A stretch of 64,000 bases of DNA from assembly GCF_001723605.1 (NCBI RefSeq), contig NZ_CP017111.1, forward strand, positions 1,302,001-1,366,000, read 5' to 3'. Numbering within the stretch: position 1 is the stretch's first letter; every line of letters begins with the position of its first letter. Below, in pieces: positions 34,852-43,722 of this stretch. This DNA comes from Sulfurospirillum halorespirans DSM 13726 (GTDB taxonomy: Bacteria; Campylobacterota; Campylobacteria; Campylobacterales; Sulfurospirillaceae). The notes below the pieces were generated by a model. The model searched no databases and was not told the origin of the DNA. It saw only the letters and a list, made by a program, of their open reading frames with translations. Position numbers and translations under genes: made by a program.

Positions 34852-35258
34852 AAAAGGTACAGTAGGTGATTGCTTGAGAGTTTCTCTTAAGAGGAAAGTC
34901 CGGGCTGCATGTGAGACATGGTTCCGTCTAACGGACGGCTAGGGTAACCTAAGGGATTAGTGCAACAGAGAGTAAACTACCATTTTGTCACTCTTGCGAA
35001 AGCGCAAGCATAAGTAAGATGAATTGGTGACGAGCTTTGCTTGTCTCCAAGAAGACAGTTTAATGGAAAAGGTGAAACGGTGGGGTAAGAGCCCACCAGT
35101 GCTTTAAGTAATTAAGGCAGCTATGTAAACCCAACCTGCAGCAAGAAGGGATGGTTTTGGTCTCACACACGATAAACCCTTCGCTAGAGGTCTATCGTAA
35201 GATAGATCGTAGATAAATAATCACCCACGACAGAACCCGGCTTATCGCTGTACCTTTT
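34852..35258 (+). ncRNA. rnpB: RNase P RNA
   Basis: The sequence contains the universally conserved P4 strands: GAGGAAAGTCCGGGCT near the 5' end and AGAACCCGGCTTA near the 3' end, as well as the GCAACAGAGAG, GGTGAAACGGTGGGGTAAGAG and CCCAACCTGCAGCAAGAAG internal conserved segments. The ends pair as an 11-bp P1 helix (34852-34862 with 35248-35258). This is the catalytic RNA that trims the 5' leaders of tRNA precursors. The boundaries are set by P1 and may be off by a few bases. Confidence 0.95.
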
Positions 35259-35280
35259 GTCCACAAAGCCTAAAAAAAGG

Positions 35281-39813: not shown

Positions 39814-40419
39814 ATGATGGATCAAGAGACACTTTATAAGCTTGTTATTGTAGTATTGATTATTGGCATACTTCTATTACTTTATTACTATCAAAAACGT
39901 TTATGTGAATTAAAGTTACACAATGGTCAGTTAGAACTGCTAAGTCAGTACGATGATTTGACGCAAATCTATAACAGACGTTATTTTCTAGAGATAGTGC
40001 AGTATCATTTTACAAAAATGTATCATCACAAACCTTCTGCTATTATGATGATTGATATTGACCATTTTAAGCAGATTAACGATACCCATGGTCATATTTT
40101 AGGCGATGATGTTTTGCAATATGTTGTTAAGTTAATCAGCGAACACTTACGCGAAAGTGATATTTTTGCGCGTTATGGTGGCGACGAGTTTATCGTATTT
40201 TTTCCCGCTATTTCACAAAAAGATATTTACAATATTGCACTCAGAATTCAATCAAAACTTTTCGAAGACTCCTCGTATGCTTCTCCGGTAACGCTAAGTA
40301 TAGGAATATGCCTTTTTAGCACTTCTTTAGCACTTCAAAACGTTATTGAATATGCAGATAATGCTCTTTATGTAGCAAAAAGTAAAGGACGTAACCGAAT
40401 CGAATTTTATCCATCTTGA
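39814..40419 (+). CDS. Membrane-anchored diguanylate cyclase (GGDEF)
   Basis: A 201-residue protein with one N-terminal membrane helix (YKLVIVVLIIGILLLLYYY) and a GGDEF domain with YDDLTQIYNRRYF, DIDHFKQINDTHGH and an intact ARYGGDEF active site. It should make c-di-GMP from GTP. No inhibitory RxxD motif or sensor domain is apparent. A longer start at 39745 is possible but would place the second operator repeat inside the gene; the ATG at 39814 is preferred. Its gene lies opposite the XRE regulator. Its stop codon overlaps the -35 element of the thiamine operon. Confidence 0.88.
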   Translation: MMDQETLYKLVIVVLIIGILLLLYYYQKRLCELKLHNGQLELLSQYDDLTQIYNRRYFLEIVQYHFTKMYHHKPSAIMMIDIDHFKQINDTHGHILGDDVLQYVVKLISEHLRESDIFARYGGDEFIVFFPAISQKDIYNIALRIQSKLFEDSSYASPVTLSIGICLFSTSLALQNVIEYADNALYVAKSKGRNRIEFYPS

Positions 40420-40444
40420 AAATCGTTTTAAATCAGAGTATAAT
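40416..40444 (+). promoter_or_regulatory. Promoter of the thiamine riboswitch operon
   Basis: TTGAAA (40416-40421) and TATAAT (40439-40444) are separated by exactly 17 bases, a good sigma-70 promoter. The predicted start near 40451 gives a leader of about 478 nt before thiD. Confidence 0.75.
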
Positions 40445-40454
40445 TGTCCGCAAT

Positions 40455-40825
40455 AGTTCGTGCTAGGAGGGCTGGTAAACCAGCTGAGATAAAGAATGGT
40501 GATTCTTTGATCCTTATACCAAGCGCACCTATCTATCGCATCAATAGCTTGTCAAGCACCAAGTTTCATGAGGCGATACTTTGCAAGTGTAGTCAAACTA
40601 CACTCAAAAGTATCAACAAAATGAAACGCCGTGTGATTGACAAGCCCTACGGGAACTTTTTTAAAATCATCTTTGGGGCGTTAAAGATACTTGCCTTGCA
40701 CTTAGCAAGGTTGCGCATCTTTGCCTACCAAACACAATTTTTAAAAAGTTCTATTGACGAGATAGATAGATGCGCTTGGTATCTACCTGATCTGGGTAAT
40801 GCCAGCGTAGGAAAGCTCAATCAAA
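40455..40825 (+). promoter_or_regulatory. TPP riboswitch with a giant three-way insertion
   Basis: Conserved thi-box pieces are split. The 5' part has P3 (GCTGG/CCAGC at 40471-40484), the TGAGA joining strand at 40485, an extra hairpin (40491-40508) and TCCT. The 3' part has the pyrophosphate-binding arm ACCTGATCTGGGTAATGCC with AGCGTAGGA at 40785-40812. Between them a 21-bp helix with one mismatch (40516-40536 with 40762-40782) carries two long hairpins (40547-40645 and 40653-40751, 99 nt each). The insertion is therefore about 267 nt in the P2-P4 joining strand. It lies before thiD, whose pathway makes TPP. No terminator is clear after it, so control may be at translation. Confidence 0.9.
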
Positions 40826-40871
40826 CCAACACACATCCTCCTTTTTAAGCCCTTCCACGACCTTCATTATC

Positions 40872-40896
40872 TTTACATGTAAAGCTTACATGTAAA
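40872..40896 (+). repeat. Tandem TTTACATGTAAA copies forming one perfect hairpin
   Basis: An exact palindrome (40872-40883) and a one-mismatch copy (40885-40896) overlap so closely that TTTACATGTAA and TTACATGTAAA form an 11-bp stem with a 3-base loop. It lies between the riboswitch and the thiD ribosome site. It could be part of the expression platform or merely two motif copies. Confidence 0.6.
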
Positions 40897-40928
40897 CGCA
40901 ATTCAACTCAATTTTACGAGGAAAACGT

Positions 40929-41732
40929 ATGAAACATTGTTTAACCATAGCAGGCTCAGACAGCTGTGGCGGAGCGGGCATCCAAGCTGACCTTAAAGCC
41001 TTTAGCGCCAATGGAACGTATGGTATGAGCGTTATCACCGCGATTACGGCGCAAAATACCCAAGGCGTTTTTGATGTGCAAGACATTAACCCTTCTGTGA
41101 TACAACATCAAATCGAAGCAATTTTTGATGACATTCGCGTGGATGCGATCAAAATTGGTATGGTCTCTCGTCCTGAAACGATAGAAATCATCGCCACAAC
41201 CCTTAAAAAATACCCTTTGCCGCCACTCGTCATTGACCCTGTGATGATCTCCAAAAGTGGGTATGACCTGTTGCAACCCGAAGCAAAAAAGGCACTCGTT
41301 GAAATGCTTTTACCGATGGCAACGTTGATTACGCCCAATCTTCCCGAAGCCGAAGTCATTGTAGGGTATAAAATTGACACGATTGAACGGATGCAAAAAG
41401 CTGCCCTTGATCTGCATAAACTGGGCTGTAAATACGTCCTTGTCAAAGGTGGACATCTAGAAAATGATGCGACCGATGTGCTGTACGATGGCGCGCAGTT
41501 TCATCTTTTACACTCCAAACGATTAGAAACGATCAACACGCATGGAACGGGCTGTACGCTCTCTTCTGCCATTGCAGCGAACCTAGCAAAGGGTTTACAT
41601 GTAAAGAGTGCTGTTGAAGCAGCTAAGGCGTATATCACCGAAGCGATTACTCATGGATTTAAACTGGGGCATGGCGTGGGACCTGTGCACCATTTTTACG
41701 CACTTTACACAAAAGCAGGAATGGAATCATGA
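40929..41732 (+). CDS. thiD: Hydroxymethylpyrimidine/phosphomethylpyrimidine kinase
   Basis: A 267-residue ribokinase-like enzyme with [35 protein letters not shown] and the catalytic [20 protein letters not shown]. It phosphorylates HMP and then HMP-P in thiamine synthesis. It is the first gene after the TPP riboswitch; GAGGAA precedes its ATG. Its end overlaps the start of cytX by 4 bases (ATGA). An exact palindrome at 41594 is read as LHVK. Confidence 0.95.
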
Positions 41733-42940
41733 TGGAAGAAAAAACGAGTTTAAGTAGTTTTGGATTGTTCGCACTCTGGTTTGGTGCGGCAGTCTCGATG
41801 GCAGAGATTTTTACAGGTGGACTTTTAGCGCCTTTGGGTTTTAGTGAAGGTTTAAAAGCAATTCTTTTGGGTCATCTGATTGGTGGTTTGATTTTGATTT
41901 TGGGTGGTTACATCGGAGCCAAAAGCCATCTTCCTGCCATCATGTCCACACGCATCTCGTTTGGGCGTTATGGCTCGTATCTTTTTTCACTTCTCAATGT
42001 GCTTCAACTCATCGGTTGGACAGCGGTGATGATCATATCAGGTGGGCGCGCTGCCAATGAGCTTGGGATCAATCTTTTTGAATTTGATAGCATCAACACG
42101 TGGGCGATTGCTATTGGTGTCTTGATAGCGTTGTGGATTTGGCTTGGAAAAGTGGGCTTTCAAAAGCTCAATCTCATCGCCGTCAGCCTCCTTTTTGTGC
42201 TTACGTTGGTGTTGTGTGGCGTTGTGTTTCAAGAGGGACGCATTTTACATGTAAAGCCTACAGGGGAGATGAGTTTTGGATCAGCTTTAGAGCTTAGCAT
42301 CATTATGCCGCTTTCGTGGTTGCCGTTGATTTCGGATTATACCCGTTTTGCGAAGAGCAAAAAAGGCGGGCTTATCGGTAGTTTTATGGGTTATCTTATT
42401 GGTAGTTCTTTGATGTATGCCATTGGTCTTGCCATCGCGCTGTATGCCAAAGATGCGAGTCTGGGAACGATGATGATGGCACTGCATTTAGGCTTTGTGG
42501 CTCTTGGTATCGTGCTACTTTCCACCATCACAACGACCTTTTTAGATGCGTACTCCGCAGGCGTAACCTTTACCAATATTTTCCCACAGATCAATGAGCG
42601 AAAGATCGCGTTTGTACTGGCTGTTGTTGGTCTTTTGGTCGCACTGTTTACGCCCATAGAACAGTATGAGAATTTTCTGTATGCGATCGGCTCGGTCTTT
42701 GGACCATTGTTTGCGATTGTGCTGAGTGATTATTTCATCTTTAAAAAAGAGCAGATCGAACCTACGTTAGCGTTACATGTAGGCTCACTTATTGTCTGGG
42801 CAATTGGTGTTGCGCTTTATTATCAGTTCATTACTCTCGATCTTCCTTTGGGCTCAACGCTTCCGACGATGCTTGCAACAAGCATCCTTTTTATCATTTC
42901 AAAAAAGGCAATTTCATCATGGACATTCAAGAGCAACTAA
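41729..42940 (+). CDS. cytX: Putative hydroxymethylpyrimidine transporter CytX (NCS1 family)
   Basis: A 403-residue membrane protein with about 12 hydrophobic segments. FALWFGAAVSMAEIFTGGLLAPLG and SFGRYGSYLFSLLNVLQLIGWTAVM are NCS1 motifs, and the position between thiD and thiM under a TPP riboswitch is the known context of CytX. It should import HMP or a related pyrimidine. Overlaps both neighbours (4 and 22 bases). Contains an exact TTTACATGTAAA at 42244. Confidence 0.9.
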   Translation: MMEEKTSLSSFGLFALWFGAAVSMAEIFTGGLLAPLGFSEGLKAILLGHLIGGLILILGGYIGAKSHLPAIMSTRISFGRYGSYLFSLLNVLQLIGWTAVMIISGGRAANELGINLFEFDSINTWAIAIGVLIALWIWLGKVGFQKLNLIAVSLLFVLTLVLCGVVFQEGRILHVKPTGEMSFGSALELSIIMPLSWLPLISDYTRFAKSKKGGLIGSFMGYLIGSSLMYAIGLAIALYAKDASLGTMMMALHLGFVALGIVLLSTITTTFLDAYSAGVTFTNIFPQINERKIAFVLAVVGLLVALFTPIEQYENFLYAIGSVFGPLFAIVLSDYFIFKKEQIEPTLALHVGSLIVWAIGVALYYQFITLDLPLGSTLPTMLATSILFIISKKAISSWTFKSN

Positions 42941-43722
42941 ACGAAGTATTTGAAGCTTTACAAAACAAGCGTGCGCTCATTCATCACATTACCAATTATG
43001 TCACGGTCAATGACTGCGCTAATGTTGTTTTAGCCATGGGTGCATCGCCGATTATGGCAGATGAACTCAGTGAAGTAGAGGAGATGGTCGGCATTTGCGA
43101 TGCGCTGGTACTGAACATAGGCACAGCTAACGAGCGCATCATCGCTTCCATGCTCAAAGCGGGCAGAGCAGCAAACGCCAAAGGCATCCCCGTGGTGCTT
43201 GATCCTGTCGGCGTGGGTGCAACACCGTTTCGTCGCAAGAGTGTTGCAAAGCTCATGGATACAATCTCTTTTAGTGTGATTCGCGGCAATATGGCAGAGA
43301 TCAAAACCATTGCAGGGCTTGAAGCCAAAAGCGCAGGCGTTGACTCCTTGGATGAGGAGAGCGATGGCGCTAAAATCGCTTTAACGCTAGCGAAAAAATT
43401 GGATTGTGTGATTGCCATTACGGGCAAAATGGACATTGTATCAGATGGCGTGAGTACTTACAGCCTTGACAACGGCGATGTGGCTCTGACGAAACTGACA
43501 GGAACAGGGTGCATGAGCAGTTCGCTCATCGGCAGTTTTCTAGGCGCTTCAAACAAAGCTCTAGCAAGTGCTATTGCAGGTATTCTAACTATGTCCATTG
43601 CGGGTGAGATAGCCAATAAAAGCCAAGGAATGGGAACATTTCACACATCACTGATCGATGCGATAAGCCAAATGGATGTTCAACGTATGATCAATAGCGC
43701 TAAGATTGACTTCATTAAATAA
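42919..43722 (+). CDS. thiM: Hydroxyethylthiazole kinase
   Basis: A 267-residue ribokinase-like protein with HHITNYVTVNDCANVVLAMGASPIMA, VLNIGT, VLDPVGVGATPFR, RGNMAEIKTIAG and the catalytic LTGTGCMSSSLIG. It phosphorylates the thiazole moiety for thiamine salvage. The start lies within the end of cytX. With ThiD and CytX it completes a salvage operon; thiE (joining enzyme) and thiazole synthesis genes are not in the window. Confidence 0.95.
   Translation: MDIQEQLNEVFEALQNKRALIHHITNYVTVNDCANVVLAMGASPIMADELSEVEEMVGICDALVLNIGTANERIIASMLKAGRAANAKGIPVVLDPVGVGATPFRRKSVAKLMDTISFSVIRGNMAEIKTIAGLEAKSAGVDSLDEESDGAKIALTLAKKLDCVIAITGKMDIVSDGVSTYSLDNGDVALTKLTGTGCMSSSLIGSFLGASNKALASAIAGILTMSIAGEIANKSQGMGTFHTSLIDAISQMDVQRMINSAKIDFIK

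Follow-up and report, generated by a model that had tools for sequence, protein, structure and literature searches.

The leader of the thiamin operon thiD-cytX-thiM carries a TPP riboswitch whose aptamer is divided by a 267-nt structured insert in the joining strand J2/4. This insert is very probably a copy of a dispersed, non-autonomous, structure-conserved and MITE-like family of Campylobacterota that entered J2/4 once, forms a separate arm and leaves the binding core in place. The operon lies in the window, by which we mean the whole 64-kb stretch of DNA analysed, held by a genome of 3.03 Mb in a single contig (G000).

The divided TPP aptamer and its insert

The first gene of the regulated operon is thiD, encoding HMP/HMP-P kinase (40929–41732, + strand; TIGR00097 above cut-off), followed by cytX (41729–42940, +; TIGR02358 above cut-off) and thiM (42919–43722, +; TIGR00694/NF006830 above cut-offs), and the riboswitch is positioned before these thiamin genes. 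A predicted promoter of the operon, TTGAAA-17-TATAAT (40416–40444, +), agreed with the consensus at 11 of 12 positions, and its -10 region (TATAAT/TACAAT) is retained in relatives. Since the predicted promoter ends at 40444, the whole thiD leader should be transcribed.

Searching the leader with RF00059 in Infernal returned two pieces, 40455–40538 (25.7 bits) and 40767–40830 (34.8 bits). Both scores are below the gathering cut-off of 54.3 bits because the match is split by the insert, and a gathering scan of the window therefore misses the riboswitch. The conserved thi-box segments were found in order, as seen from the two half matches and from identity to intact orthologues. Naturally element-free orthologous leaders, which have GTG instead of the insert, scored 71–75 bits (71.4–74.5; G008, 72.2) as ordinary RF00059 TPP riboswitches. 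The sub-cut-off score thus stems from how the model searches rather than from a missing part of the aptamer. The covariance search proposed in the preliminary description thus bears out its claim of a TPP riboswitch with a structured J2/4 insertion.

The 5' half of the aptamer (40455–40515, +; 25.7-bit half match) comprises the 5' strands of P1 (40460–40464) and P2 (40465–40468), P3 (40471–40484), UGAGA (40485–40489), P3a (40491–40508) and the 3' strand of P2 (40511–40514). The 3' half (40785–40822, +; 34.8-bit half match) comprises P4/P5, GCGUAGG and the 3' strand of P1 (40814–40818). The thi-box segments, UGAGA, P3, P3a, P4/P5 and the place before thiD-cytX-thiM are the same as in other RF00059 riboswitches, whereas the three-way element of 267 nt in J2/4 is different. 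In the predicted fold of the leader, P3, P3a and P4/P5 form alongside the folded element, and the folding energy was -145.6 kcal/mol compared with -91.3 ± 5.7 for shuffled sequences (z -9.6).

A candidate expression-platform segment, CCTCCT (40837–40842, +), pairs in the predicted fold with AGGAGG (40465–40470), or alternatively with the Shine-Dalgarno sequence GAGGA (40918–40922). UCCUC and GAGGA are retained in the thiD leaders of most relatives. Control of thiD is probably translational: AGGAGG of the P2 region may take up CCTCCT, which otherwise could cover GAGGA. The gap between riboswitch and thiD also holds two adjoining palindromes, TTTACATGTAAA and TTACATGTAAA (40870–40898); sites of this kind are seen repeatedly between genes in the genus and may bind a regulator.

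We built one covariance model, R1, from the four thiD orthologues that carry the insert, and a broader model, R2. The element spans 40516–40782 (+), where the whole R2 model matched at 246 bits, and its reverse strand also scored 203 bits, reflecting near palindromy; R2 found no further element in the 64-kb window. The terminal inverted repeats pair with each other as the left (40516–40547, +) and right (40751–40782, +) arms of an outer helix, 91% complementary over 32 nt; no other inverted repeat in the window reaches 29 of 32 matches within a span of up to about 340 nt. This helix had been described as 21 bp; it is present and longer, with 28 consensus pairs. Pairing and covariation place hairpin 1, whose internal loop has the (A)AGGC and AAC(G) motifs of the family, at 40547–40645 (+) and hairpin 2 (CGTTA ... 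TGCC), which is similar to hairpin 1 in reverse complement, at 40653–40751 (+). The two hairpins of about 99 nt stand as they were first described, and to them is added a 3-bp mini-hairpin, CCC-UAC-GGG (40645–40653, +), at the junction of both (columns 147–158 of alignment A4, 97.4% of cells paired). A coding function was considered for a 134-aa frame in the insert and rejected: the frame has no Pfam match and is interrupted by stops in two of the four species (G015 and G004).

Large J2/4 insertions are rare, and the preliminary description was right to call such a domain unusual: among TPP matches in a 150-genome sample of the phylum and 44 genomes of the bacterial family, only these four leaders were split. 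Known tolerated insertions in TPP riboswitches are stem-loops at specific sites, for example the optional P3a (PMC2258182). The thiD insert resembles these variable insertions as a stable stem-loop structure that spares the core, and differs from them in its traceable mobile origin.

Filled and empty thiD leaders in the genus

Comparison of thiD leaders, likewise proposed at the outset, distinguished carriers from non-carriers. The same insert occupies the same site in G015, G004 and G020, which are further species of the genus, at 94.4–97.0% identity and without indels. Five leaders (G008, G017, G023, G012 and G009) are element-free and read GATCCTT-GTG-ACCTGATC, that is, GTG at the insert site. 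The leader of G013 holds a short hairpin, ATACCAAGCG-TATG-TGCTTGATAT, built from the insert ends, which we read as a putative deletion remnant of the insert and which is intermediate between filled and empty leaders. Carriers do not group together in a TruD gene tree and have element-free close relatives. No clear target duplication was seen for the thiD copy, though the site is empty in relatives. Blastn searches with the insert of its own genome and of the family and phylum samples gave nothing convincing beyond the four thiD orthologues; weak matches in the phylum sample lay within apparent coding genes and were taken as chance.

Between the window and nine relatives, the aptamer 5' half is 98.4–100% identical over 61 nt and the 3' half 97.4–100% identical, whereas the post-aptamer region is 60–99% identical and fourfold-degenerate sites of thiD are only about 55% identical between carriers. 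Near-identity of the aptamer halves beside diverged flanks and fourfold sites indicates purifying selection on the aptamer in carriers too. Carriers and non-carriers share at least 97% identity in each half, and on this ground the riboswitch probably remains functional and the carrier leader TPP-responsive.

The simplest reading is a single insertion of the element into J2/4 of the thiD riboswitch, since the sequence subfamily of the thiD copy is known only at this site. Once transcribed, the element would fold as a separate arm, its ends pairing with each other; because they pair, the aptamer junction would gain one helix and stay closed. The three-way junction (P1/P2/P4) would thereby become a four-way junction with the binding core preserved, and the carrier leader would still bind TPP and control thiD translation. 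Identical empty alleles in several clades, together with two bases just upstream of the insert (CCGCAATAG) that G000 and G020 share and the others lack, point to allele exchange by recombination, and the filled thiD allele may have spread between species through recombination in the conserved aptamer arms.

Separately, J2/4 of the thiD leaders in the sister species G002 and G021 (L021 and L024) holds small hairpins unrelated to the insert, AAACCGA...TCGGTTT and CGCCGAG...CTCGGTCG, respectively. TPP riboswitches of this genus can therefore have one more optional stem, and J2/4 tolerates stems.

An alternative, which we regard as possible though unlikely, is that the insert is of mobile origin and is now a domesticated domain, selected for tuning the riboswitch through delayed aptamer completion or the recruitment of RNase III or a protein. 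The high identity of the insert across four species, without a single indel and at thiD fourfold identities of only about 55%, fits such selection, and so do its variable sites: 11 of 22 fall within the 66 unpaired columns, while changes in the helices mostly preserve pairs and include two double changes. The order of insert distances, with G020 the most distant, resembles the TruD tree; the distribution of the insert, however, is patchy, with G008 (close to G000), G009 (close to G020) and G017/G023 all lacking it and all showing the same GTG. The upstream bases common to G000 and G020 but lacking in the others suggest recent allele transfer, and G013 retains just the short end hairpin, apparently without harm.

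A dispersed and mobile element family

R1 matched over the full length at further loci in the genus, the bacterial family and other families of the order, with E-values down to about 1e-48. Such copies at unrelated loci contradict an ordinary J2/4 stem that expanded in situ through slippage or template switching; the small unrelated hairpins of G002 and G021 speak for this reading, which has next to no probability. R2 detected the element in 26 of 44 genomes of the bacterial family and gave no match in the other 18. The matches listed in these 44 genomes represent 91 distinct loci, with matches on both strands counted once in view of the near palindromy; the richest genomes among them hold at least 15 (G060 and G064) or at least 12 (G032 and G066) copies, and the genome of the window holds two. 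Copies of the same architecture, about 261–281 nt in size, occupy unrelated intergenic sites across Campylobacterota, and the earlier suggestion of a mobile hairpin element tolerated in the loop proved right because relatives occur at unrelated loci.

The copies we retrieved share one layout: an outer inverted repeat, a hairpin of about 99 nt, a CCC-NNN-GGG mini-hairpin and a second hairpin of about 99 nt. The length to the inverted-repeat ends was 265–281 nt in 40 of 41 tabulated copies and 256 nt in one. The motifs AAGGC and AACG recur together in hairpin 1, as do CGTTA and TGCC in hairpin 2. When the right half of the element is reverse-complemented, the left half is 58–69% identical to it (shuffled mean about 51%). 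Subfamilies drop below 50% identity, and their ends differ (ATACCAAG, ATGCCAAATCC, AGTACCTAACC, TAGACTTCTTGC, AACTGACCTTAC and GGGCATCACC). One further subfamily, with AACTGACCTTAC ends (L196–L200), has four aligned copies at different loci that are 86–93% identical, and its copy L199 has a TTAGTAA direct repeat.

In a MAFFT alignment of 39 copies, which was not fitted to structure, RNAalifold predicted 68 pairs, and double compensatory changes were seen in 65. Paired cells amounted to 89.3%, compared with 59.8% in shuffled and 37–45% in slid controls, and the covariation score was 0.747, compared with 0.222 in shuffled and at most 0.202 in slid controls, all of these figures counting sequences and not events. 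The four thiD orthologues alone showed weak covariation, with only two double changes, and strong covariation arises only with the wider family. Compensatory base changes, the check first suggested for the hairpins, support the inner pair. The other idea, a role of its own for the domain in the riboswitch, is no more than a possibility; the fold is also conserved in copies unconnected with riboswitches.

The second copy in the window's genome (C1:1124092-1124357) is about 96% identical to a copy at another locus of G007 (95.9% in alignment A4) and about 91–92% identical to copies at other loci of G003 (90.7% in alignment A4). Its site is empty in five relatives (G008, G013, G012, G009 and G006), which read GCACAATGGTTTACATG or nearly so. 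The filled site reads GCATAAT-[element]-AATAGTTTACATG, with a direct repeat of AAT or, at another boundary, TAATA. Near-identity across loci in other species, clean empty sites and a short target duplication indicate that the element is mobile and MITE-like. A uniform TA target duplication was dropped as inconsistent with the length of the empty site. At this site, G017 and G023 (L168 and L169, about position 1486) have a solo left end of about 20 nt (AGACTTCTTGCATAATCTAA), the footprint of an excision or deletion. Another copy, in G021 (L134:1191-1456), sits in the leader of thiC between a second TPP aptamer, which it directly follows, and the ribosome site; relatives lack the element and read GGAAATAAGGAG there. 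The family has thus entered another TPP leader besides that of thiD.

Movement would depend on a trans-acting enzyme, and limited searches revealed no autonomous partner or transposase. R2 gave no match at E<=1 in 119 kb of viral contigs, where 14 single matches to one end pattern were seen and set aside. A sequence search of plasmids with three element copies gave no match, and one of phages gave a single 26-nt match, taken as chance.

The conserved fold and length, and the presence of several copies within 100 nt upstream of start codons, could also be expected of a cis-regulatory or trans-acting structured RNA that spread with genes rather than as a mobile element. We consider this very unlikely, because the copies have unrelated neighbours in convergent, divergent and tandem intergenic regions, orthologous sites are empty with target duplication, and the element is nearly palindromic.

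Relation to known systems

The element type is closest to MITEs. Like the bacterial MITEs Correia/NEMIS, ERIC, RUP, BOX and QMITE (PMC10969869), it is short (267 nt), non-coding (no Pfam match) and bounded by terminal inverted repeats (32-nt arms), occurs in multiple dispersed intergenic copies and would give stable stem-loop transcripts; target-site duplication and empty sites were found for the second copy in the window's genome. Its unusual trait is that the three-way architecture, about 267 nt long, hardly varies even below 50% identity, and its subfamilies, unlike those MITEs, have different terminal sequences without any Rfam match. Rfam searches of the window and 38 copy-bearing loci gave no match to the element at gathering, only weak chance matches. 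The family is also unnamed in the literature searched, which excluded preprints and most subscription journals, and is apparently new to science and absent from Rfam.

Such near invariance of length and fold is unusual for a passive MITE and counts against the mobile-MITE reading. Subfamilies share less than 50% identity and differ in their termini, yet preserve length and three-way fold. The family may therefore, quite tentatively and against the likelier MITE-like interpretation, be a novel type of small mobile element that moves by virtue of its folded structure and not of its terminal sequence, for example if a recombinase or transposase acts on the folded single strand, with one copy adopted as an extra riboswitch arm.

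It is highly improbable that the insertion inactivated the riboswitch and left a decaying relic. RF00059 scores below the cut-off would agree with decay, but the four carriers have unchanged aptamer halves beside leader sequence that differs by 15–35% among them, and the promoter and the anti-SD/SD elements persist.

Returning to the MITE-like insertion, transcripts containing Correia elements are cleaved by RNase III at the TIRs (PMC10969869), and by analogy RNase III may cut the outer helix, in which case P1 and the helix stub would hold the two halves together. Such cutting, with fragmentation of the leader like that of rRNA intervening sequences, is possible. The intervening sequences of Campylobacter 23S rRNA (PMC2801512) likewise add sequence within an RNA gene and are unevenly distributed among relatives; the thiD insert differs in residing in an mRNA riboswitch and in having intergenic relatives.

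TPP riboswitches that are almost identical apart from the presence or absence of a 267-nt arm in J2/4 provide natural paired test material. The case would show how a riboswitch can gain a domain from a mobile element and stay intact, and that large inserts are tolerated in J2/4, a useful point for engineering. A family with strong covariation and at least 15 copies per genome raises the question of what selects for the fold, and standard riboswitch annotation misses such split aptamers. Elsewhere in the window, RNase P RNA (34854–35260; class A, 261 bits) carries about 66 nt of extra sequence between model positions 136 and 137.
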